From the NCBI RefSeq assembly GCF_014696435.1, contig NZ_JACJQG010000013.1, positions 1 to 64,000 on the forward strand: DNA of 64,000 nt. The letters run 5' to 3'. This stretch comes from Calothrix anomala FACHB-343. GTDB lineage: Bacteria; Cyanobacteriota; Cyanobacteriia; Cyanobacteriales; Nostocaceae. This document shows positions 12,599 through 27,090 of this stretch, piece by piece (position 1 is the first letter of the stretch; each line of letters opens with the position of its first letter). Both the position numbers and the translations under genes were made by a program. The notes below the pieces were generated by a model that was not told the origin of the DNA, made no database searches, and saw only the letters and a list, made by a program, of their open reading frames with translations.

Positions 12599-13192
12599 AT
12601 GGCTTACGTACCACTACGAGAAGCGGTTAAAGCGCTGGGATTACACCCAAATACTTTAAGGAAATACGCCGACAATGGGAAAATCGAGAGCATCAAAAAC
12701 GAAGCAGGGCAAAGACTTTTTAACGTCGAGTCCTACCTTCGCGGTGCAACATATCGCTCCCTTGTTTGCTACTGCCGAGTTAGTTCAACTAAACAACGAG
12801 ACGACCTTGGTAGACAAATTGCCTACATGCAATCACTCTACCCGGAAGCCGAAATCATCAAAGATATCGGCAGTGGAATCAACTTCAAGCGTAAAGGACT
12901 GCAAACCTTACTGGACAGACTTCTGCGCGGAGATAAGCTCACGCTTGTTGTTGCCTGTCGTGACCGACTCGCACGGTTTGGATTTGAGCTTATTCAGTAC
13001 ATGGTCGAGCAAAACGGTGGACAAATCGTGGTTCTCGACAACACTGTACACTGCCCCGAATCAGAGCTTAGGGCGGATCTTCTCTCCATCCTCCATGTCT
13101 TCTCTTGTAGAATGCACGGACTTAGGAAATACAGTAAAAAAATCAAGGAAGATCCGGATATTCCTAACAGCAACCCAAAGACAGACGATTAA
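12599..13192 (+). CDS. tnpA: IS607-family serine transposase TnpA
   Basis: A 197-residue recombinase. N-terminal MerR-like helix-turn-helix (YVPLREAVKALGLHPNTLRKYADNGKI), then a serine-resolvase domain: CYCRVSSTKQRDDLGRQ holds the nucleophile Ser, and ACRDRLARFG holds the conserved Arg residues. It ends with MHGLRKYSKKIKEDP, as is usual for this family. Length is normal, so it is probably intact. Its last 98 bp overlap the start of tnpB. Confidence 0.93.
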   Translation: MAYVPLREAVKALGLHPNTLRKYADNGKIESIKNEAGQRLFNVESYLRGATYRSLVCYCRVSSTKQRDDLGRQIAYMQSLYPEAEIIKDIGSGINFKRKGLQTLLDRLLRGDKLTLVVACRDRLARFGFELIQYMVEQNGGQIVVLDNTVHCPESELRADLLSILHVFSCRMHGLRKYSKKIKEDPDIPNSNPKTDD

Positions 13193-14243
13193 ACAGTGGT
13201 TTGGTGTTTCTAGGTTTGTCTATAACACCACAGTCAAACTACTGCAAGATTCAACTGTTAAGGCGAATTGGAAAGCAATTAAGACAGATATATTGAATGG
13301 ACTACCTGATTTTTGCAAATCAGTACCTTATCAAATCAAGTCAATTGCCATCAAAGATTCCTGCAAGGCTGTTAGTAATGCTAAGAAAAAGTTTAAAAAT
13401 GGTGGTGCTATTAGCTTTTGTAAGTTTAGGTCTAGAAAAGCCCCTATTCAATCTTGCTATATTCCTAAATCTGCGGTGTCAGACAAAGGAATTTACCACA
13501 CTATTTTGGGTGAGGTAGTATTCAAGGAAGCCTTACCTCAGAGCTTTGGTGACTGTCGATTAGTGTTTGCTTATGGCGACTACTATCTGACAACACCTAT
13601 GGTAGTGTCACGACAACAGTTCGATAACCAAGGGCGTGTCGTGGCACTAGATCCAGGCATCAGAACATTTATTACATTCTTTTCAGAATCTAATTTTGGT
13701 GAAATCGGAACTTCAGCTAATATCCAAATTCAAAAACTCTGTTTTCGGTTGGATAAGTTAATTTCTAAAATCACCAAAGCCAAGTGTAAGCAGAAGAGAA
13801 GATTAAAATTTGCTGCAACAAAACTACGAGATAAAATCAAAAACCTTGTAGATGAATTGCACAAAAAGACCGCCCGATTTTTGGTTGATAACTTTGACAT
13901 TATTCTGTTACCGACCTTTGAAACATCTCAAATGTCGAAAAAGGCAAAACGGCGAATTAGATCAAAGTCAGTACGTCAGATGTTGACACTATCTCATTAC
14001 CGTTTTAAGCAGTTTCTTAAGCACAAAGCTTTTGAAAACAGCAAGTTGGTAATGGATGTTAATGAGGCGTATACATCCAAGACAGTTAGTTGGACTGGTG
14101 AAATAATCCACAATCTTGGTGGAGGTAAATTCATTAAGTCACTAACTGACGGGCGAGTGATGCCAAGGGATCTAAATGGTGCGCGAGGGATTTTCCTTCG
14201 TGCATTGGTTGATACGCCCTCACTTCGTGAGTGTATTTGTTAA
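13095..14243 (+). CDS. tnpB: TnpB RNA-guided nuclease (IS607-associated, IS1341/OrfB family)
   Basis: A 382-residue protein from the ATG at 13095, chosen because the open frame upstream of it only shadows tnpA. RuvC-like catalytic residues are present: D186 in VALDPGIRTF, E276 in LLPTFETSQM, D359 in PRDLNGARGIF. The zinc ribbon between E and the last D is degenerate: YTSKTVSWTGE...LGGGKFIKSLTDGRV lacks the four expected cysteines. TnpB proteins are guided by an RNA from the 3' end of the gene and cut DNA at the donor site; here that RNA would start inside tnpB and run to about 14256. Whether the zinc-less form is active is unknown. Confidence 0.88.
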   Translation: MSSLVECTDLGNTVKKSRKIRIFLTATQRQTIKQWFGVSRFVYNTTVKLLQDSTVKANWKAIKTDILNGLPDFCKSVPYQIKSIAIKDSCKAVSNAKKKFKNGGAISFCKFRSRKAPIQSCYIPKSAVSDKGIYHTILGEVVFKEALPQSFGDCRLVFAYGDYYLTTPMVVSRQQFDNQGRVVALDPGIRTFITFFSESNFGEIGTSANIQIQKLCFRLDKLISKITKAKCKQKRRLKFAATKLRDKIKNLVDELHKKTARFLVDNFDIILLPTFETSQMSKKAKRRIRSKSVRQMLTLSHYRFKQFLKHKAFENSKLVMDVNEAYTSKTVSWTGEIIHNLGGGKFIKSLTDGRVMPRDLNGARGIFLRALVDTPSLRECIC

Positions 14244-18373: not shown

Positions 18374-19246
18374 TTAACCACCACCGCCACAACCACCACC
18401 ACAACCACCGCCGCAGCCACCACCACCGCCGCCACAGCTACCACCGCTACCGCTACCGCCACCAGTGCGATCGCTACTGCTGTTACTACCAAAGATCATG
18501 CCGTATAAGAATATAAGACCAAAAAATCCCCAAAATATCCAGCTAAACCAATTACCAGAAGATGAAGAAGATCCTGAACTTTGCCATCGTGATGGTTTGA
18601 TATCAGTACCAGTGCTATCAAAGTTTACCTGAACTCCTAGCTCTTTTCCTGGTTCGATGGCTGTTGATGCGATCGCTTCAATAGTTTTAGCATCAACTTT
18701 GCGAATATTGGCTTCTGTACCCCAGGTTTGAAAAGCTTTAATTTTTGTAGCGAATTGTTCCGGAAACCGAACTATGACTTTTGCTTGTTTAACAGCAGCT
18801 TTTCGCTCAGGAAATATAGCTTTCCAATAGACTTGTGCATCATTTTCATTGACTTCCAATCCACCAATAACACGATATTTCAGTACAAACGTATGACTTT
18901 CTGGTGCTTTTAATGGATGTTCCCAATTAATCCAAAATTTATTATTTTCTATTTTGGTGGCACTGGGAAATATTTGCCCGTTTTCTGATACTGTTACTTC
19001 CTGAATTTCGTCTATTTTATCTATAAGAATGTAGCGATAACGTTGATTTGTGTAATCGCCAGTAAAAGTATATTTTTGGGTTTCAGTAATTAACATGTCA
19101 CCATTAGTTTGTACGGCAACATCTACATTAATAAAGTCCCAATAAAAGGGTATTGATTCAGCTTGGACATGATGGATAGAAAATGTGATACTGAAAATTA
19201 GAGCAATCGAAAAGAGAATTAGCCTTTGAATTATTTTGCTGTACAT
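18374..19246 (-). CDS. DUF2207 membrane protein with Gly/Cys-rich tail
   Basis: A 290-residue protein: signal peptide/first membrane helix (residues 8-28), extracytoplasmic DUF2207 domain (VDVAVQTNGDMLITETQKYTF...; FVLKYRV), one membrane helix near residues 232-252, then a tail of about 30 residues made of Gly repeats with spaced Cys. DUF2207 proteins commonly end in such a Gly-rich tail. Function unknown. It is the last gene of the leftward signalling block. Confidence 0.85.
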   Translation of the reverse strand: MYSKIIQRLILFSIALIFSITFSIHHVQAESIPFYWDFINVDVAVQTNGDMLITETQKYTFTGDYTNQRYRYILIDKIDEIQEVTVSENGQIFPSATKIENNKFWINWEHPLKAPESHTFVLKYRVIGGLEVNENDAQVYWKAIFPERKAAVKQAKVIVRFPEQFATKIKAFQTWGTEANIRKVDAKTIEAIASTAIEPGKELGVQVNFDSTGTDIKPSRWQSSGSSSSSGNWFSWIFWGFFGLIFLYGMIFGSNSSSDRTGGGSGSGGSCGGGGGGCGGGCGGGCGGGG

Positions 19247-19409
19247 AAATCGTTTTACTCATTAATATTATTGGATATGGCTATAGTTTGAATTAGTGCC
19301 GCTTCTCAAAGTTGAGAAATTAAATTTGTAGTAATAACTTCAGTTCTCACTACAAATTTACTTATTTTGTACTGAAAATGTTACCCATACCAGCTTGATA
19401 ATTTATCGA

Positions 19410-20165
19410 TCAATCAATTAATCCTGCTGCTCTCGCTCGAATTTTTGTAAAAACTCTGATGTTTATCCCTTGATTTCTTAATTCATGACAATCAATACCT
19501 AAAGCTGCTTGCAATGTCTCCCAATGTTTACGTACAGTACGTTCAGATACGCAAATATGTGCAGCAATTGCTTTATCTTGCAATCCTTCATTAAAAGCTA
19601 GGCTTAGTAGTTTTAATATTTCTGGTTTCAGGTTTAATTTCTCATAAATATCTGGATATATATAGATATCTGTAATTCCTTTAATGCGAGTAAATCCTTT
19701 TAATGCTCCATCTATTATTGAGAGCATTTCTTGACTAGTAACATTTTTATCAGCAATGACAAAGCCGCCTTGATGTTTAACAATTGCAGGTTTAATTTGC
19801 ACTAGTCTTTTAACATAAGGACTTTGGACAAATATATTCAATTTAGGATATTTTTGCATTACCTGTTGTAAGAAATCCAGACCTGTCTTAGTTTGTGCTA
19901 TTTCTCCTAATTTTTCTGGTAGGTAAATATCCATGATAATTAGATCTGGTTGCCAATTTACGATTTTATTAATAGCGTCATTTGCTGTTCGCGTACTGAT
20001 AATATTTCCATCAGGATATTGAGTCTTTACCAATTGGGCTGTTGCATTGAGAGCAATATCATAACTATCAACTAGCAAAATTTGCAGTGATACTTTTTTT
20101 GCTAAACATTGGTTCATAGGAGTAAATTCTTCTGGAAAATAGACCATTAAGCGATCGCTTTTCAC
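19410..20165 (-). CDS. LuxR/NarL-type response regulator
   Basis: A 251-residue regulator. Receiver domain (about 26-150): LQILLVDSYD with D33, phospho-acceptor D79 in LIIMDIYLPE, and Lys in FVIADKNVT. C-terminal LuxR-type helix-turn-helix with EILKLLSLAFNEGLQDKAIAA and CVSERTVRKHWETLQ. The N-terminal ~25 residues are probably an over-long start; Met17 is an alternative. No histidine kinase is adjacent. It lies 195 bp downstream of the CHAT gene in the same direction, so it may belong to that pathway (inference). Confidence 0.85.
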   Translation of the reverse strand: MKSDRLMVYFPEEFTPMNQCLAKKVSLQILLVDSYDIALNATAQLVKTQYPDGNIISTRTANDAINKIVNWQPDLIIMDIYLPEKLGEIAQTKTGLDFLQQVMQKYPKLNIFVQSPYVKRLVQIKPAIVKHQGGFVIADKNVTSQEMLSIIDGALKGFTRIKGITDIYIYPDIYEKLNLKPEILKLLSLAFNEGLQDKAIAAHICVSERTVRKHWETLQAALGIDCHELRNQGINIRVFTKIRARAAGLID

Positions 20166-20360
20166 CCCGCTAAAGGAATATCTACAGTTAGAGTCACAAT
20201 TTCCGCAATTGTTACTAAAATTTACACAATCTAGGTTACCCTACGCATGTTTTGCATAAAAAATAGAAATCTTATACCAATTTAAATAGAGTGGCACATA
20301 AATATATACTAGAGGGCATGGCACTGCCATAACCCTATTATCTGTCGCATTGTTTCTCAC

Positions 20361-23042
20361 CTATTGACAAGGAATATCTTTGGCGAGATCAAACTTCAAT
20401 TGCTGATTATGCTCTTTAACAGTTAATATGGGTTGGGTGTCAATTCCTTCGCGATCGCCTGTTGCTTTAAAAATAATCTTCCAACCTTTCAGCACATCAC
20501 TAGAGGCTGCTTTATCTGGGTGAATACCTGTCTCAGTCAATTTCTGTTGAATTGTTTTTCTATCAATAGGTTTACCTACATCTTGATTTTTAATAGCTTG
20601 GACAATTGCTTGCACAGCCTCGTATGATAGGGCGACTCTTCTATTTAAATCACCACCCCAATATTGACGAATCTGTTCAGCGAAGTCTTGCGCACCACAC
20701 TGTTTTGGATGCCATTCACTTTGTAAAAATAAGCTTTTTGTAGCTGTTTTAGCTTGAGTAAGTACTTGTTGAAGATAAAGAGTATTGGCTCCTAAAATAG
20801 GTTTTTTACCATTATTTAACTTGATAATTTTAATCGCATTTTCCAATGTTTTATTACCATCAGTTCCGCCATCAGGTAATAGTACCAAAGCATCTGCCTC
20901 TTGAACCTCGGACGGAAGTTTACTAGCATCAAAGTTTGGATCGGATAAGTCAACTTTAAGAAGTATTTTTCCTTGATATGATTGGATTACCTTCTCAAAT
21001 TCGTCAGTCAAATCTCGGCTAAACCATTCTTTACTGTAAAAAATGACTACTTTTGGTTGATTTCTTCGCAAATCACTAACTAAATATTGCACCAAACTTT
21101 TTGCTTCGTCTCGAGTAGATGTAGTTGTGCGGAAGAATACTTTATTGGCAGTAGCACAACTTTGTAAATTCAATACAGTGCTGGTGGGAGAAATTAAGAC
21201 AAGTTCGTTTGGTGAATAAACTTTTAAAGCTTCACAGGTATTAGGTGAGGTGTAATGTCCTACTACAGCGAGAATTTTTTGATTTTGGGATAGTTTTGTA
21301 GCAATTTGTTGAGCTTGCTTTTGTTGATTGAGATCGTTAGCAATGACAACTTGTAAATTTATACCGTTTTTAACTGCTACATCTTGAGCTTGAGCCACGC
21401 CAAATAAGATATCTAATCCAGAATTAACATTTAAGGGTGCTGCTACAGCAATGGTGTAAATTGGAAAGATAGGATTTTGTTTATGTCGCGTATTTACGAA
21501 AGCATTGTTACGATAAATTAGCACTTCTGGATCTTGCAATGCTGCTAAAGCTGTTTGACGTAAACCTTGAACTTTTTTATTGTTTCCTGCTTGAAAGCGG
21601 AGACTATCAAAAGTTTTGTATGCACTATCATAGTCACCTTGAGCAAATTCTTTAATTCCTTGCTCTTTTAATCCAAGATATGGTTGACTCAATTTGACTG
21701 TGCTATCAGCAATTGCTTTTTCACCCAAGCTCATAAAGTTGTCTATTTTAGGTTGAATTGTTTCATCATTTCCTGGGGGTTTACAGCTTGAAGAGAAAAT
21801 TGAACAGCGATTAATATAAATTAAAGTGGCTGCAATAATTCCTACGACAGCAGCCAAACCTAAGATTTTCTTAAGCAGTGGGAAAGGTGGAGGGGGAGGA
21901 GAGGGATTTGGTATCATTTCTGAGGTTTGAGTAGGCCAAACAAATTCTGGTTGATTGGGATTGAGACAAACGACAGGTAGCCAAGAAGCAGTGGGAAAAG
22001 TAGCCTTTAAAGCATCTAGGCGATCGCGTGCTTCCCTAACTGCTAAACACAGGGGTATACCTTGCGAAAATTCTCGTAAAAAATAGAGTAAAAATTGACC
22101 AGCAATTCTATCTGGTACGGGTTCCCGCATCACTATTGAGGCTGGAACGTTTAACTGTGTCAAAAAATCTGCAATTCCTAAGCCATCACAGGAATTGAAA
22201 ATTGCTAACTTTAAACCTTTATTTACTGCTCGCTTTAAGCTGGGAGTTAATGCTTCTAAAGGTAAAAATTTATCCTGACTAATTTGAATTTGTCCACCTA
22301 TTACTTTACTGGAACTATGACCAGCAAAAAACAGAATATCCCAAACATTATCAAATAATAAATGAGCAATATCTTCTTCTGTTGGCTCCACTTTCCAAGT
22401 AATTCTTGCTCCTCTTGCTTCCAAAAGTTCGAGAGCTTTTCTATCGGCTTCTAGTTGTAAATTTCCCTGAGAACTGCCGAATATAGCTAAAACTTTGACT
22501 GGTGTTGTAAAGGTAGCTACTTGATTGTGAAATCTAGTAAATAAGGCAAATTCAGTGTTAGGGAGTTTAGAAAATAAATCCCAGATATGCCAAGGTAGTC
22601 TCCGTAAAACATCATTATGCCGATGATTTGCAGTATGACATCTAATGATAATCGGCACAGATTGATCGGCTTTGACTTTGATATTGGCTTGAATGCGATC
22701 GCGTAAACTTTTAAAGGCTGGATTTTGAAACCAGTTCTTACAGTAATTCTCTAGCTCTTCGGCTCTTTGTTTCCAACTATCTAAAGCTACGTTTGTTACC
22801 TGTCCGGGAACAGCTTGTAGGGTGCGACTATTCTCCAGTAATATATCTTGCCAATTTTCGTATAACTTTGGTATCGGCGACGCTGGGGGAATCTCAGTTA
22901 AATCATAGTGTTCATCAATAATTTTACCGTCTTCAAAAATTTGCACTCTGACACAAAAGCCGTCATCAAAGCTACCGCTACTAATCTCAAGTACAACAGC
23001 GACATTTTGAGGAGGTTGAAGACTAGAGGAGGATAGCACCAT
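20361..23042 (-). CDS. CHAT protease - transmembrane - periplasmic binding domain fusion
   Basis: An 893-residue fusion. Residues ~180-370 are a CHAT caspase-like peptidase: catalytic H242 in FFAGHSS and C285 in FNSCDGLG. The first 170 residues include a conserved helper region (RRLPWHIWDLF). After a Pro-rich linker, one membrane helix lies at about 392-411. Residues ~430-500 resemble TPR helices. Residues ~525-890 form a type-1 periplasmic binding fold of the branched-chain amino-acid receptor kind (YTIAVAAPLN, AVVGHYTSPNT, LISPTSTV). The predicted topology puts the protease in the cytoplasm and the ligand sensor in the periplasm. I infer ligand-controlled proteolysis. The DUF1822 and sigma-like genes lie directly upstream. 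Confidence 0.88.
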   Translation of the reverse strand: MVLSSSSLQPPQNVAVVLEISSGSFDDGFCVRVQIFEDGKIIDEHYDLTEIPPASPIPKLYENWQDILLENSRTLQAVPGQVTNVALDSWKQRAEELENYCKNWFQNPAFKSLRDRIQANIKVKADQSVPIIIRCHTANHRHNDVLRRLPWHIWDLFSKLPNTEFALFTRFHNQVATFTTPVKVLAIFGSSQGNLQLEADRKALELLEARGARITWKVEPTEEDIAHLLFDNVWDILFFAGHSSSKVIGGQIQISQDKFLPLEALTPSLKRAVNKGLKLAIFNSCDGLGIADFLTQLNVPASIVMREPVPDRIAGQFLLYFLREFSQGIPLCLAVREARDRLDALKATFPTASWLPVVCLNPNQPEFVWPTQTSEMIPNPSPPPPPFPLLKKILGLAAVVGIIAATLIYINRCSIFSSSCKPPGNDETIQPKIDNFMSLGEKAIADSTVKLSQPYLGLKEQGIKEFAQGDYDSAYKTFDSLRFQAGNNKKVQGLRQTALAALQDPEVLIYRNNAFVNTRHKQNPIFPIYTIAVAAPLNVNSGLDILFGVAQAQDVAVKNGINLQVVIANDLNQQKQAQQIATKLSQNQKILAVVGHYTSPNTCEALKVYSPNELVLISPTSTVLNLQSCATANKVFFRTTTSTRDEAKSLVQYLVSDLRRNQPKVVIFYSKEWFSRDLTDEFEKVIQSYQGKILLKVDLSDPNFDASKLPSEVQEADALVLLPDGGTDGNKTLENAIKIIKLNNGKKPILGANTLYLQQVLTQAKTATKSLFLQSEWHPKQCGAQDFAEQIRQYWGGDLNRRVALSYEAVQAIVQAIKNQDVGKPIDRKTIQQKLTETGIHPDKAASSDVLKGWKIIFKATGDREGIDTQPILTVKEHNQQLKFDLAKDIPCQ

Positions 23043-23122
23043 AAACGACCTAGCGAGGATATTGGGAATTCAAGGGTTTATTATTAGATAAGCATGATTC
23101 CGCAAAACTACGCAAGAGTTAG

Positions 23123-24229
23123 CTAAATTATAAAATCTTCGCTAAAGCTGGCATCATTGAGAACAACAAGGGCACGGAAGCGATCGCCTGCATCGGCTGT
23201 AAACTTAAACTGAATATAATCATCTTTCTGGCGTGATTCTATAGAAAAAAACGGCCTACCATTTTCATCTAACCCCATGAGCTTTAATCCTGATGGTAAA
23301 TGAGACGATTTTTCTAAGGGATAAACTCGCAATAAAATTAACATTTTGCTATCTAATTTAGGCAAAATTCCTACCATTAAGACTATGGAATATCCCAGGA
23401 GATAAATACCTAAATCTTTAGCATTAATTACTGGACATGATGGATGCTTTGGTTCTATTTCCCACAATAACTCAGCAGCTTGCCAACGAATTTCATCATC
23501 CTCAGTTGTTTGGATAAGTTTTACCAAAGCTTCTTGGGGAGTGAGATATAAATCACAATAACTTCCGCGATAAAGTTGTTCAACTCGTTGGCGAATTACA
23601 TCGTTACCTCGATTTTGCAGTTGCTGTTGTGGCTGCTCAATTAACGTTTTCATGCTGCGAAAATTGCTGAGTAATGTTGGTGCAGGTTGCCAATCAGATT
23701 CAAATTTATGTTGTAGCCATTGTGTTAGTTTTACAATTGGTTCTGCTGCTGGTTCTAAGGTTAAACGCTCTAACAATAAATCCAATGATTGAAAATAGCT
23801 ACGCGGTAGTTCTGTTACTGATATAGATTCAACAAATCCTAAAATGTGCCCTTCTTGGTAAGGTTCATCGAGTTGCACGATCGCGTAACCAATGCGTTCT
23901 GTCCAAACTTCTTGTGGGATGTGACATTTGCGATCGCGCTGACGCAAGCACCGACATTCTAAAAAGCCTTCCAAACTAGGAATATACAAGTCCGCAATAT
24001 TTTCAATCAGGCGTTCTAGGGGATTCCAGCTATGACTGAGTTCTAAATCGCTGTCGATACCTAATAGTTGTAAATAACGCCGCATGACTAATACAGCCAA
24101 GGTATTGCGGTAAACTTGTTGCGATCGCTCTTCGGTTAATTGCTGTTGCGCAAATTTGTAAGCTTGTATTCGATCCGTTGCTGTAATTGCAATTGCAATC
24201 TGCGGAAATCTTTCTGCGGTATTTATCAT
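23123..24229 (-). CDS. DUF1822 family protein
   Basis: A 368-residue soluble protein, a cyanobacterial family without known function. Near the N-terminus it has a YRNTLAVLVMRRYLQLLGID block and a Cys/Arg-rich stretch ECRCLRQRDRKC. The C-terminal part is beta-rich (ILLRVYPLEKSS, YIQFKFTADAGDRFRALVVL). No membrane segment or catalytic motif is seen. It sits 80 bp upstream of the CHAT fusion gene and 98 bp downstream of the sigma-like gene, so co-transcription is likely. It may be a regulator, adaptor or substrate in that module (inference). Confidence 0.8.
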   Translation of the reverse strand: MINTAERFPQIAIAITATDRIQAYKFAQQQLTEERSQQVYRNTLAVLVMRRYLQLLGIDSDLELSHSWNPLERLIENIADLYIPSLEGFLECRCLRQRDRKCHIPQEVWTERIGYAIVQLDEPYQEGHILGFVESISVTELPRSYFQSLDLLLERLTLEPAAEPIVKLTQWLQHKFESDWQPAPTLLSNFRSMKTLIEQPQQQLQNRGNDVIRQRVEQLYRGSYCDLYLTPQEALVKLIQTTEDDEIRWQAAELLWEIEPKHPSCPVINAKDLGIYLLGYSIVLMVGILPKLDSKMLILLRVYPLEKSSHLPSGLKLMGLDENGRPFFSIESRQKDDYIQFKFTADAGDRFRALVVLNDASFSEDFII

Positions 24230-24253
24230 GATTTGTTCGTTGTCAGTTGTCAG

Positions 24254-24306
24254 AGACGCGATGAATCGCGTCTGTTCAGTTGTCAGAGACGCGATTCATC
24301 GCGTCT
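24254..24306. repeat. Two inverted copies of the AGACGCGAT/ATCGCGTCT palindrome
   Basis: Palindromes at 24254-24273 and 24287-24306 are in opposite orientation around the TC/GA centre and could fold together. They lie between the sigma-like and DUF1822 genes. Single copies occur at 25202, 54543 and 62431. Confidence 0.88.
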
Positions 24307-24327
24307 GTACAATTGTCCCCCTAGCCC

Positions 24328-25059
24328 CTAGTCCAACAACTGTTTTAAATGCGAGAAACATCTTGTGCGACAAAATCTCCTCAGTGCTGATGGTTCGATT
24401 GCATATTCTTGAGCGATCGCATTCCAAGAAAAATTTCCGGAATCTTGTAACACCTTTAAAATATGAATCAACAAAATTTGACAGTTAACCTGGGGATAAC
24501 TCTGCATTCGACAATTTTTGAAGGCTTGGGGATGATTTTGCAATAAATCTAGCCATTCTTGGATAGTTTCATCCCAGCGATCCGGATCTGGCGCTGGTGG
24601 TTCCATCCACTGATGATTTTCTGCATCTGTAACAGCATTTAACCGTCTTCTTTCTTCATCAGCTTTTTGGCGAATTACATCATGAATGATCCAGCGCAGT
24701 TTTTGGTTAAACCAGGTGACAAAACTAGCCGTTGTTGGCTGATACTGCCCCAGATTTTCCATAAACCATACCCAAGTTCTTGATAAAGCTTCACTATATA
24801 CATCTGGTGATATTCTTGCGCCGTTCCAAATTAACCGGGAAGACTTCATCATCGCGATAATGAAATCCTTCACCCGCTCTGGATTCTCGGCTTGAGATAA
24901 TTGTGCAAATAACCATTGACGCGCCGGAATATCATTCATAATTTCCTGGAGCGTTTTTTGTTGCTGTAATAACCTGCTTCTGGCCATTGAGTTATTTAAA
25001 GCAGCTTCCAGCAAGCCAATCAAAGGAGATTCCTTCAAGTCATTAGACATAAAAGTCAT
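24328..25059 (-). CDS. Sigma-70-like (ECF-related) transcription factor
   Basis: A 243-residue protein. Region-2-like helices are seen in DVYSEALSRTWVWFMENL, ASFVTWFNQKLRWIIHDVIRQ, followed by a basic EERRRL stretch. A short HTH-like C-terminus (FSWNAIAQEYAIEPSALRRFCRTRC) could be region 4. It is divergent from classical sigma factors, so the call is sigma-like. First gene of a probable three-gene unit with DUF1822 and the CHAT fusion. If active it might direct its own operon; I cannot identify its promoter. Confidence 0.75.
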   Translation of the reverse strand: MTFMSNDLKESPLIGLLEAALNNSMARSRLLQQQKTLQEIMNDIPARQWLFAQLSQAENPERVKDFIIAMMKSSRLIWNGARISPDVYSEALSRTWVWFMENLGQYQPTTASFVTWFNQKLRWIIHDVIRQKADEERRRLNAVTDAENHQWMEPPAPDPDRWDETIQEWLDLLQNHPQAFKNCRMQSYPQVNCQILLIHILKVLQDSGNFSWNAIAQEYAIEPSALRRFCRTRCFSHLKQLLD

Positions 25060-25201
25060 CCAGACCCAATTAATATAGGTTGGAATATCATGACAATTGC
25101 GAACCTCCTTTCACCTGTTTGATAGCTTATCGGCGTTACAGGTAGGAATAATTCAAATTATTTACAAAACTTTATAAAAAAGAAAACGGAGACAATTGTA
25201 G

Positions 25202-25221
25202 AGACGCGATTCATCGCGTCT
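25202..25221. repeat. AGACGCGATTCATCGCGTCT palindrome
   Basis: 20-bp element preceded by ACAATTGTAG, as at the other copies in the window. Confidence 0.9.
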
Positions 25222-25228
25222 CCGAGAA

Positions 25229-25278
25229 ATGCCCAATACCCAATGCCCAATGCCCAATGCCCAATGCCCAATGCCCCA
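25229..25278. repeat. ATGCCCA heptamer tandem repeat
   Basis: About seven ATGCCCA-like units running right up to the stop codon of the kinase gene. Confidence 0.88.
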
Positions 25279-27090
25279 TTACGGCTGAAGTTGTTGAATA
25301 AAAGATTGGGCTAGCTTGGCACAATTCGTCAGTCCTTGTTGACTACAAAGTGTATCAGCTTTCTCAAAATCTTGAATGGCCTCTTCCCTAGAGCCAAGTG
25401 CAGCGTAAACCCGGCCGCGATTAAAGTAAGCTTGGGCAAAATCTTTTTTGTGTTCGATTGCTTGAGTAAAATCGTCAATCGCTCCTTGTAATTTATTTTG
25501 GGCGGCTAAAGCGTTACCTCGGCCATCATAGGCGATCGCGGCGATATCTGGTTTATTAGTGGTTAATTGTAGAGCTTGGTTATAATCAGCGATCGCCTTA
25601 TTGTAATCTTGAAATTGTTCAATATATAAAACACCCCGGTTAATATAAGCCTGAGGATCGTTGAGATTTAAGTCTATTAACTTAGTAAAATCTGCCAATG
25701 CTCCGTCTTTATTTTTTAAATTACGCCGCGCATTAGCTCGATTTAAGTAAGCATCACCATACATAGCATTAAGCTTAATGGCTTGCGTGCATTGCTCTTC
25801 GGCTTTCTGGGGTTGTTGTAGCAGCAAAAGTGCAGCACAGTGACGACTATAAGCTTCAAAATAATTTTTATTTAATTCAATCGCTTTGCTTGCATCTTCC
25901 GCCGCACGTTGAAAGTTACTCGCCAAAAAGTGAGCATTTGCTCGTTCATAATATGCTTCCGCATACTTAGGATTAAGCTTGATAGCTTGAGTGAATTCTT
26001 TAATCGCTTCTGACTTATCTTTTTTCTCTAATTTTTCTCGTCCCCGTTCATAAAATGCTACTGCTTGGGTTATCGGTAGCTGACGATATACAGCAAAACC
26101 AATTCCGGAAACTGCAATTAATCCGATTACCCCAATGACAATAGATGGTTTGACGGGAATTTTTAACGGTATTGGATTATTTTTACTAATTTTTGTGGGC
26201 AGTGGTGAAAAACCTGGAGAATAAGCCGCGATTTTACTTAAATCTGCCAGTACTTCACTAGCTGCTTGGTAACGGCTGCGCCAATCAGCCACAACCATTT
26301 TATCAATCACATCTGCCAAAGCCGGACTAACTTTAACTTGGTTGCGCCAAACTATTTCGCCAGGTGTAGGACTGCTGTTACCGCGCAGCTTGGTTAAATC
26401 ATGGGCTGGTAAACCCAACAGCGCTTGGATAGCAATCATTCCCAAAGCATAAATATCACTGTTGAATTGGGGAAAACCATGAAATTGTTCCATTGGCATA
26501 TAAGCCGCAGTTCCAACAGCCGCAGTGGGTGTCAATTGTCCATGCGGAATTTGCGCGTTGATTTCTTTAACTGCACCAAAATCAATTAATACTAATCTTC
26601 TATCAGTAGAGCGGCGCATTAAATTAGATGGTTTAATATCGCGGTGAATCACTCCCTGACTATGTACAAATACTAAAATGCTTAAAACTTCTGTTAATAG
26701 CTGGGTAACTTGCTGTTCATGCCAAGGTTGATGTGGTTGTATTTCTTGGTGTAAAGGATGACCATCAATTAATTGCTGAACTAAGTAAAATTCTTTATCT
26801 TGCTCAAATTCTGCTAATAAAGTGGGTATTTGGTCATGTCTACCCAATTTTTCTAATATTTCTGCTTCTTTTTTAAATAATCGGCGCGCCGCACTTAAGG
26901 CTAAAGGGTCTTGGCTTGAGTAGCTCAGCTGCTTAACCACGCATTGCGGATGAGTTGGACGCTTGAGATCTTTTGCCAAAAAGGTTTTTCCAAAGGCCCC
27001 TCCGCCCAAGACTTGAACTATTTCATAACGTCCGTCCAAGAGTTGACCGATCATGGTATTTTTGCTGCTACTGTTAGCTAATTTTAACAC
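25279..27090 (-). CDS. Membrane-bound Ser/Thr protein kinase with TPR repeats
   Basis: A 603-residue Hanks-type kinase. Kinase domain residues ~15-290: Gly-rich loop LGGGAFGKTF, ATP-binding K53 (CVVKQL), catalytic HRDIKPSN with D151, and DFG motif D170 (LIDFGAVKE). One membrane helix lies near 312-332 (VIGVIGLIAVSGIGFAV). Residues ~340-595 are tandem TPRs (AIKEFTQAIKLNPKYAEAYYERANAH type), predicted outside the cytoplasm. Met13 (MIGQLLDGRYEI) is a possible alternative start. It lies 219 bp upstream of the sigma-like gene in the same direction. Confidence 0.92.
   Translation of the reverse strand: MLKLANSSSKNTMIGQLLDGRYEIVQVLGGGAFGKTFLAKDLKRPTHPQCVVKQLSYSSQDPLALSAARRLFKKEAEILEKLGRHDQIPTLLAEFEQDKEFYLVQQLIDGHPLHQEIQPHQPWHEQQVTQLLTEVLSILVFVHSQGVIHRDIKPSNLMRRSTDRRLVLIDFGAVKEINAQIPHGQLTPTAAVGTAAYMPMEQFHGFPQFNSDIYALGMIAIQALLGLPAHDLTKLRGNSSPTPGEIVWRNQVKVSPALADVIDKMVVADWRSRYQAASEVLADLSKIAAYSPGFSPLPTKISKNNPIPLKIPVKPSIVIGVIGLIAVSGIGFAVYRQLPITQAVAFYERGREKLEKKDKSEAIKEFTQAIKLNPKYAEAYYERANAHFLASNFQRAAEDASKAIELNKNYFEAYSRHCAALLLLQQPQKAEEQCTQAIKLNAMYGDAYLNRANARRNLKNKDGALADFTKLIDLNLNDPQAYINRGVLYIEQFQDYNKAIADYNQALQLTTNKPDIAAIAYDGRGNALAAQNKLQGAIDDFTQAIEHKKDFAQAYFNRGRVYAALGSREEAIQDFEKADTLCSQQGLTNCAKLAQSFIQQLQP

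Follow-up and report, generated by a model that had tools for sequence, protein, structure and literature searches.

The genes described here lie on the minus strand of a 64,000-nucleotide (nt) stretch of DNA from Calothrix anomala FACHB-343 (contig NZ_JACJQG010000013.1), the whole of which we call the window. Three of them, at positions 20361–25059, encode a divergent sigma factor, a DUF1822 protein, and a protein in which a CHAT caspase-like domain, a transmembrane (TM) helix, and a periplasmic binding domain are joined. A first-pass annotation had described this trio, together with a response regulator, a DUF2207 protein, and a TPR kinase, as one candidate signaling module; all six open reading frames (ORFs) were found where it had placed them, all on the minus strand. 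The features of the trio and of the DNA ahead of it are collected in Table 1.

Table 1. Features of the trio and its upstream DNA, numbered from the first letter of the window
Feature	Position	Strand	Basis
Divergent sigma factor of the extracytoplasmic function (ECF)-like type, 243 amino acids (aa)	24328..25059	-	Matches to TIGR02937 and NF041236 below cut-off; hhalign of family
DUF1822 protein, 368 aa, proposed anti-sigma factor and protease substrate	23123..24229	-	Pfam E = 2e-77; AlphaFold2 predicted local distance difference test (pLDDT) 84.7
DUF1822 N-terminal α/β domain, aa 11–142, common to distant membrane-bound relatives	23804..24199	-	AlphaFold2, profile-profile comparison, joint alignment
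DUF1822 C-terminal immunoglobulin (Ig)-like β-sandwich, aa 267–367	23129..23431	-	
CHAT-TM-periplasmic-binding receptor protease, 893 aa	20361..23042	-	Pfam; AlphaFold2 pLDDT 82.3
Receptor N-terminal α/β domain, aa 14–119, at the EACC2 place	22686..23003	-	AlphaFold2; name by position from Kaur et al. 2021
CHAT caspase-like domain, aa 129–360, with H242 (22317–22319) and C285 (22188–22190)	21963..22658	-	Pfam, AlphaFold2, alignment
Single TM helix, aa 396–415	21798..21857	-	Hydropathy and AlphaFold2
Four helices between membrane and binding domain, aa 455–522, TPR-like by eye	21477..21680	-	AlphaFold2; alignment
Type-1 periplasmic binding domain, aa 529–888, closest to amino-acid binders	20379..21458	-	Foldseek, phmmer
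Conserved upstream element TAAAGTTTTGTAAA-N28-CGATA	25128..25174	-	Aligned in 16 upstream regions
Ungapped 36-nt leader block (reads MIFQPILIGSG*) after AAGGAGGT, its stop overlapping the sigma start	25056..25091	-	Alignment

Genomes were searched with a DUF1822 alignment, and the best 80 of 318 loci were surveyed. The best-matching locus elsewhere among them is that of Calothrix brevissima NIES-22 (95%), and 79 of the 80 are cyanobacterial by title, the last being a metagenome-assembled genome labelled Gracilibacteria. With 2 loci left unscored for the sigma gene and 6 for CHAT at contig ends, 74 of 78 loci have a sigma gene on the DUF1822 strand no more than 1.5 kb upstream (L143 is scored as lacking one, yet a sigma ORF overlaps its DUF1822 gene), and 61 of 74 have a CHAT gene on that strand no more than 2.5 kb downstream. 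An immediate upstream same-strand sigma neighbor was found for 79 of 84 DUF1822 genes; of the 370 other genes in these loci that encode 250 aa or more, taken as a control, none had one. This linkage is far beyond chance, and the three-gene unit drawn by the first-pass annotation is real and widely conserved; within it, sigma and DUF1822 (median gap 37 nt, n = 74) are the tighter pair, as is the case for sigma/anti-sigma genes. Loci L086 and L151, on the same contig, carry sigma and DUF1822 genes with no adjoining CHAT gene. An annotated copy of the trio (AVA_RS28195–28185) is found on plasmid C of Trichormus variabilis ATCC 29413. On plasmid ABRG53c of Pseudanabaena (L198) an M48 metallopeptidase gene follows sigma–DUF1822 in the place of CHAT; exchange of CHAT for other proteases was considered and set aside, this single plasmid case being too little to argue from.

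Protein distances were compared over 74 modules, from which L099, L102, L141, and L151 had been removed as duplicates and which were later thinned to 39. Across the 74 modules, the correlations are 0.71 for sigma–DUF1822, 0.76 for DUF1822–CHAT, and 0.64 for sigma–CHAT, and they range from 0.38 to 0.61 for the sensor. In the thinned set the corresponding rank correlations are 0.48, 0.57, and 0.44, and the partial correlations are 0.45 for DUF1822–CHAT, 0.32 for sigma–DUF1822, and 0.23 for sigma–CHAT; the first of these partial correlations exceeds the last in 97% of 70% subsamples. The values fit a position of DUF1822 in the middle, between sigma and CHAT, with shared species history remaining in them.

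The receptor is recognized in Pfam by a CHAT match (E = 1.3e-10, aa 202–345) and a Peripla_BP_6 match (E = 6e-24, aa 559–839). The AlphaFold2 model shows the CHAT domain, the one helix, and the type-1 binding domain in a single chain, in agreement with the domain order first described; its predicted template modelling score of 0.55 is low, and the relative placement of the domains is not fixed by the model. Residues 373–398, ahead of the TM helix, have pLDDT values under 50. His242 and Cys285, singled out in the first pass as the catalytic dyad, were correctly named: all 37 proteins of one alignment, that of the window among them, have both residues, and a further 46 of 46 keep them at the equivalent positions. 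As the dyad persists in all 83 proteins with differing sensors, selection seems to maintain the protease irrespective of the sensor attached, and the CHAT part is a predicted His242/Cys285 protease. The proposed topology, with CHAT inside the cell and the binding domain outside, is consistent with the single helix between the two domains, with the lack of an N-terminal signal, and with the charge rule around the TM helix, which is obeyed in 28 of 34 helix-bearing relatives, the window protein not being one of them. The first rows of the Foldseek search with the binding domain include 4mlc, 4q6b (a leucine complex), LivJ (4gnr), and the GABA receptor Atu2422 (3ip5), and the ligand is most likely an amino acid or similar, as judged from the fold. 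The receptor has no match among 50,697 phage records, and a phage origin was rejected. Another CHAT-matching protein of filamentous cyanobacteria is HetF, a heterocyst and divisome factor; the NCBIfam HetF model meets the receptor in the CHAT region (E = 4e-5, 22 bits; cut-off 1200), and we know of no sigma or DUF1822 partner of HetF.

Behind the constant protease, the sensors vary. Among the 83 aligned proteins, 35 carry Peripla_BP_6 (32 + 3) and 29 carry CHASE2 (2 + 27), and TPR, WD40, and pentapeptide repeats, one kinase, and one RelA/SpoT domain are also found. Such variation behind one protease suggests a substrate shared by all of these proteins, on which the constant part acts. A 1991-aa CHAT protein stands right after sigma–DUF1822 in Kamptonema sp. 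UHCC 0994 (L168), and it is probably the source of the RelA/SpoT and TGS match in the CHAT alignment. On two annotated plasmids (L199, L201), a DUF928 gene comes after the CHASE2-type module, with a CHAT or S-layer protein next, and secreted proteins of similar appearance, as judged by eye, follow CHASE2-type modules at L024, L034, and L036 of the window's own genome; these surface-protein genes are a possible regulon. A match to the window receptor at E 1e-60 is present in 67 of the 148 genomes of the order, and matches spanning both CHAT and binding domain (query start ≤50, end ≥816) number at least 18 in at least 15 genomes, the window's own included in both counts. Of the full-span loci, the 14 whose neighborhoods were inspected (L069, L070, L073–L084) all have a DUF1822 neighbor, in pieces in L077; 7 have a short sigma gene and 6 an upstream ORF of 414–543 aa. 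At L079 (G091:C21), four tandem CHAT-TM-binding-protein receptors stand behind a single DUF1822 gene.

The gene upstream of the receptor, in the same direction, encodes a DUF1822 protein, as the first pass had read it. Between its two terminal domains, the AlphaFold2 model places a helical middle (aa 149–258) with poorly ordered stretches at 195–208 and 224–226. The printed label of DUF1822 as a TPR protein was rejected, as the model has four helices at 184–258, a stretch that is missing from several relatives. The one hydrophobic stretch (aa 272 on) falls inside the β-sandwich of the model and is not flagged in L069 or L071, and the layout of a membrane anti-sigma factor, with a cytoplasmic domain, a TM helix, and an outer domain in one protein, is not that of the window DUF1822 protein. 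A search of the open-access literature found no role for DUF1822.

That layout is found in a distant family of the same phylum with genomes of 1.8–2.2 Mb (family f46; loci L208–L211, L234–L249). Each of the 20 f46 genomes searched has exactly one DUF1822 match at E 0.01, 18 of them over the Pfam cut-off; two weak matches in genome G159 (family f45) were not recovered by our own profiles and are not counted. It is the N-terminal domain only that is shared: a profile-profile comparison of four sequences gives 97.2% and E = 4.3e-11 over 137 columns, and common positions are seen in a joint alignment of the window-type and f46 domains. In f46 this domain heads a protein of about 940–1290 aa with a linker that is 25–34% acidic. 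In all 18 loci not cut by contig ends (2 of 20 are), the protein has one membrane helix, and a sigma gene follows on the same strand 14–70 base pairs on; four of these sigma proteins match TIGR02937 at E values of 4e-17 to 1e-19. The outer end of the protein is TonB_C-like in L209 (E = 1.7e-7) and in L210 (3e-4, just under the cut-off), not in L208. A third ORF comes after sigma in these 18 loci; it has 980–996 aa where its whole length is covered, and the one copy scanned, the partial one of L209, is zinc-ribbon- and NTPase-like, mostly below cut-off. Membrane anti-sigma factors of the RseA/FecR type combine a cytoplasmic sigma-binding domain, a tethering helix, and an outer domain, with the sigma gene adjoining. 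The f46 protein, with its N-terminal domain, acidic linker, TM helix, and adjoining sigma gene, therefore has an anti-sigma architecture, and the set looks like an undescribed membrane anti-sigma system. That the DUF1822 N-terminal domain and sigma stay paired in two lineages that differ in gene order and partners is the principal new reason to think that the domain acts on sigma.

The first gene of the trio had been called a sigma-70-like factor. The name holds at the level of the family, most of whose length can be matched to known sigma proteins; the single protein lacks a Pfam sigma match and scores below cut-off with TIGR02937 (23.3 bits, E = 4e-5; cut-off 42.9). Its best-scoring specific family is NF041236, the type III-E CRISPR sigma factor, although far below cut-off (20.0 bits, E = 5e-4, aa 69–242; cut-off 100). 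At E 0.01, 11 of 20 family members match TIGR02937 and 4 match NF041236. The short sigma family (18 sequences; L035 and L038 excluded from the profile) aligns by hhalign with four smaller sigma proteins of the window's own genome (L190–L193) over columns 82–239 (96.9%, E = 1.4e-10) and with nine sigma proteins of that genome over the last 40 columns only (89.1%, E = 2.3e-6). Through these alignments, both regions of an ECF-type factor, sigma-2 and sigma-4, are found in the family. Against the PDB, the short profile meets ECF sigma chains at E 0.01–0.09 over the sigma-2 part, with unrelated chains scoring alike (0.014, 0.14). The kinship of the window protein to sigma factors thus rests on the profile-profile match of its family.

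The window's own genome (9.24 Mb) holds 93 CHAT matches and 20 DUF1822 matches, the latter in 19 genes because two share one ORF (L033). By our own profiles, 11 of the 19 adjoin a gene of the same CHAT type, one of them divergently. An upstream sigma-family ORF is present for 17: 5 of the short type, 11 of 390–532 aa, and L035. The assignment of L031 and L036 is by linkage through other members only, L031 having no sigma match, and the upstream ORF of L034 gives E = 8e-10 with the long-sigma profile and 0.046 with TIGR02937. The two exceptions are L038, whose upstream ORF matched nothing, and L027, which has no upstream ORF. The long sigma group matches the nine sigma proteins of the same genome by profile (98.0).

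The claim that no system of this build had been described does not stand. Kaur et al. (2021, eLife; PMC8195603) predicted systems in which a caspase with an EACC2 domain and a variable C terminus is accompanied, in most of the neighborhoods described there as TRADD-N-independent, by an ECF sigma factor and DUF1822, and they proposed autopeptidase activation. The window shares with these systems the variable C-terminal sensor and the adjoining sigma and DUF1822 genes, and probably the constant N-terminal α/β domain and caspase: the domain after the N-terminal one is CHAT by Pfam, the α/β domain ahead of it in the model is assigned to EACC2 by position, and the sensor is highly variable across the 83 relatives. 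The window module is most likely one of the systems of Kaur et al. The main text of that paper, figures aside, is without the words "periplasmic" and "PBP", and where it deals with DUF1822 it labels it a TPR protein and gives it no role, whereas our model has an α/β N-terminal domain, a short helical middle, and an Ig-like domain. Single proteins that join a metacaspase to an ANF_receptor domain and to a CHASE2 domain were listed by Asplund-Samuelsson (2012; PMC3501461), one sequence of each; like the window receptor they join a caspase-like domain to an outer ligand domain, the topology being stated there for CHASE2. The same paper describes sigma genes in Myxococcus metacaspase operons.

Two further systems resemble the relay considered below. 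In CASP/Craspase (PMC10028731), the TPR-CHAT protease Csx29 has been shown to cleave the sigma inhibitor Csx30, and CASP-sigma is an ECF sigma factor. CHAT protease and ECF sigma are common to CASP and the window; a sigma inhibitor as the substrate is demonstrated in CASP and proposed for the window, and the trigger is target RNA on Cas7-11 in the former and would be a membrane receptor in the latter. In Calp (PMC12751052), cleavage of the anti-sigma factor CalpT is stated, the sensor-fused protease being CalpL and the sigma factor set free CalpS, which is the likeness to the proposed relay. Calp differs in having a Lon protease and a SAVED domain that senses cyclic tetra-adenylate; the Pfam matches of the window receptor are to CHAT and periplasmic-binding/ANF domains alone, and neither Lon nor SAVED is among them. 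What is new here is the quantification of the unit, the dyad census, the structure-based correction of DUF1822, and the membrane-tethered DUF1822–sigma pair, which points to an anti-sigma role.

The first-pass annotation had guessed that the protease releases the sigma factor or cuts DUF1822. This remains in our best model, a proposal from sequence, models, and analogy to which we would give an even chance: a ligand outside would activate the CHAT protease inside, DUF1822 as the anti-sigma factor would be cut, and sigma would be freed. The type-1 binding domain would take up its small ligand outside the cell, and the binding signal would travel by way of the four helices and the one TM helix to the N-terminal/CHAT part in the cytoplasm, activating the His242/Cys285 protease. 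The N-terminal domain of DUF1822 would hold sigma, as the gene pairing and the tethered f46 pair suggest, and its cleavage by active CHAT would free sigma for transcription, probably of its own operon among others. The observed basis of this model is the gene order, the domain order, the conservation of the dyad, the kinship of sigma, and the exchange of sensors. More tentatively, and a little short of even in our estimate, DUF1822 may be a phylum-wide anti-sigma family, with a soluble form in photosynthetic cyanobacteria that is destroyed by sensor-coupled CHAT and a membrane-tethered form in the distant small-genome family; on that view a caspase–sigma scheme would be general among bacteria, and CRISPR CASP would be its RNA-triggered counterpart, related by descent or arrived at by convergence.

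Several observations weigh against the proposed relay. Of 74 loci, 13 lack a downstream CHAT gene; in 7 of these (L105–L110, L114) a CHAT gene is the opposite-strand neighbor. Co-divergence is weak evidence because the three protein trees share species history, and the sigma–DUF1822 partial correlation exceeds that of sigma–CHAT in only 86% of the 70% subsamples. Pfam recognizes no sigma domain in the window sigma protein even at E 0.1, and a profile comparison does not connect the short sigma group of this genome with the long one (17.7%). The kinship of f46 rests on unfiltered profile methods, because, of the three f46 proteins put through a plain Pfam scan, only L208 gives a DUF1822 match (E = 3.5e-10), L209 and L210 giving none. 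Around the TM helix of the window receptor the charges run opposite to the rule (−1 inside, +1 outside). A cleavage site could not be identified. A sequence search of DUF1822 against solved proteins gave no match up to E 10 (the presence of Csx30 in the PDB copy is unchecked), and a whole-protein fold search gave nothing under E 0.001, its matches falling mostly on the Ig-like domain; neither Csx30 nor an anti-sigma domain is among the fold matches listed, bar a row for the RsgI4 anti-sigma sensor domain on the Ig-like part. Homology of DUF1822 to Csx30 or to an anti-sigma factor of solved structure thus found no support in these searches.

The strongest rival, though we consider it unlikely, is that CHAT mainly cleaves itself, the freed part and DUF1822 then acting as adaptors that carry or assist sigma. 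Such self-cleavage is the activation printed for EACC2 systems (Kaur et al. 2021, PMC8195603), which also counts against the relay proposed above, and it would suit a chain that holds both CHAT and sensor and is poorly ordered just before the TM helix (aa 373–398). It does not account for DUF1822 being, of all partners, the one linked most closely to sigma, nor for the f46 DUF1822 domain standing beside a sigma gene with no CHAT seen among the neighbors (by eye, with only part of the third gene of L209 scanned). We regard it as improbable that the trio is a conflict or cell-death device in which CHAT is toxic to cell proteins and sigma–DUF1822 only adjust its expression. Kaur et al. (PMC8195603) group EACC2 with immunity and apoptosis-like systems, DUF1822 copies are found on plasmids (18 records), and the 93 CHAT matches of the window's own genome would be in keeping with such a device; the receptor-type sensors, Peripla_BP_6 and CHASE2 making up 35 and 29 of the 83, suit environmental signaling, and sigma and DUF1822 also occur without an adjoining CHAT (L086/L151 and f46). 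Cleavage of the sigma protein itself, as in pro-sigma activation with DUF1822 as a presenting scaffold, has equally poor prospects: about 70 residues do lie ahead of the sigma-matching part (69–242) of the window protein, but this extension varies strongly in length and sequence among aligned sigma proteins, and sigma–CHAT is the least correlated pair. That DUF1822 is a co-activator or targeting factor of sigma, proteolysis turning the response off, is very improbable, for although gene pairing alone cannot separate an inhibitor from an activator, the tethered f46 form agrees with a role in holding sigma back at the membrane, in the manner of known anti-sigma factors.

If the proposed relay from receptor through DUF1822 to sigma is true, multicellular cyanobacteria would possess a large membrane receptor repertoire of their own, in which each receptor is a single protein coupled to a dedicated sigma factor and signals by caspase-like proteolysis, not phosphorylation. 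DUF1822 would gain a function, and its 19 copies in one genome would be partly explained; the protease/anti-sigma/sigma relay of CRISPR systems would be a general signaling design.

Upstream of the sigma gene, 16 regions (window included) share the TAAAGTTTTGTAAA-N28-CGATA element and the leader block with few changes, the DNA further up having diverged. The element is a probable promoter or operator candidate for the operon. The purine-rich stretch AAGGAGGT precedes the leader block, which is ungapped in 17 sequences (12 distinct), lacks an ATG in 3 of the 17, and has 9, 7, and 7 variable columns of 11 at codon positions 1, 2, and 3; it may be a peptide or a signal in the RNA or DNA. A 14-mer of the element occurs 4 times in the window's own genome and 17 times in four genomes, compared with 0 and 1 for a reversed control. 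As a regulon marker the element was rejected: the composite pattern is present in 2 of 20 genomes, once in the window's own and twice in G223, one of the latter being a decayed copy, and orthologues in which a base has changed, those in G077 and G111 among them, escape it. At L174 (G223:C49) there is a decayed second operon start, with element and leader partly kept and the sigma frame broken after about 20 codons.

The flanking genes fared differently from the trio. A DUF2207 gene (Pfam E = 4e-16) and a kinase with clear kinase and TPR matches are present as first read; the ORF called a LuxR response regulator is there as well, its Response_reg match (26.7 bits) lying under the Pfam cut-off of 30.2 and GerE reaching E = 0.014 only. 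Relatives of the kinase, the response regulator, and DUF2207 occur near the trio in only 7, 3, and 3 of the 80 loci, some of the 7 perhaps holding paralogues because the kinase family is large; all three occur together only in L089, with 95% DUF1822 identity. The flanks are therefore not conserved, which rules these genes out as members of the system in which the first pass had included them. Farther off, a 522-aa ORF at 12675–14243 on the plus strand resembles, by eye, a TnpB-type transposon protein.

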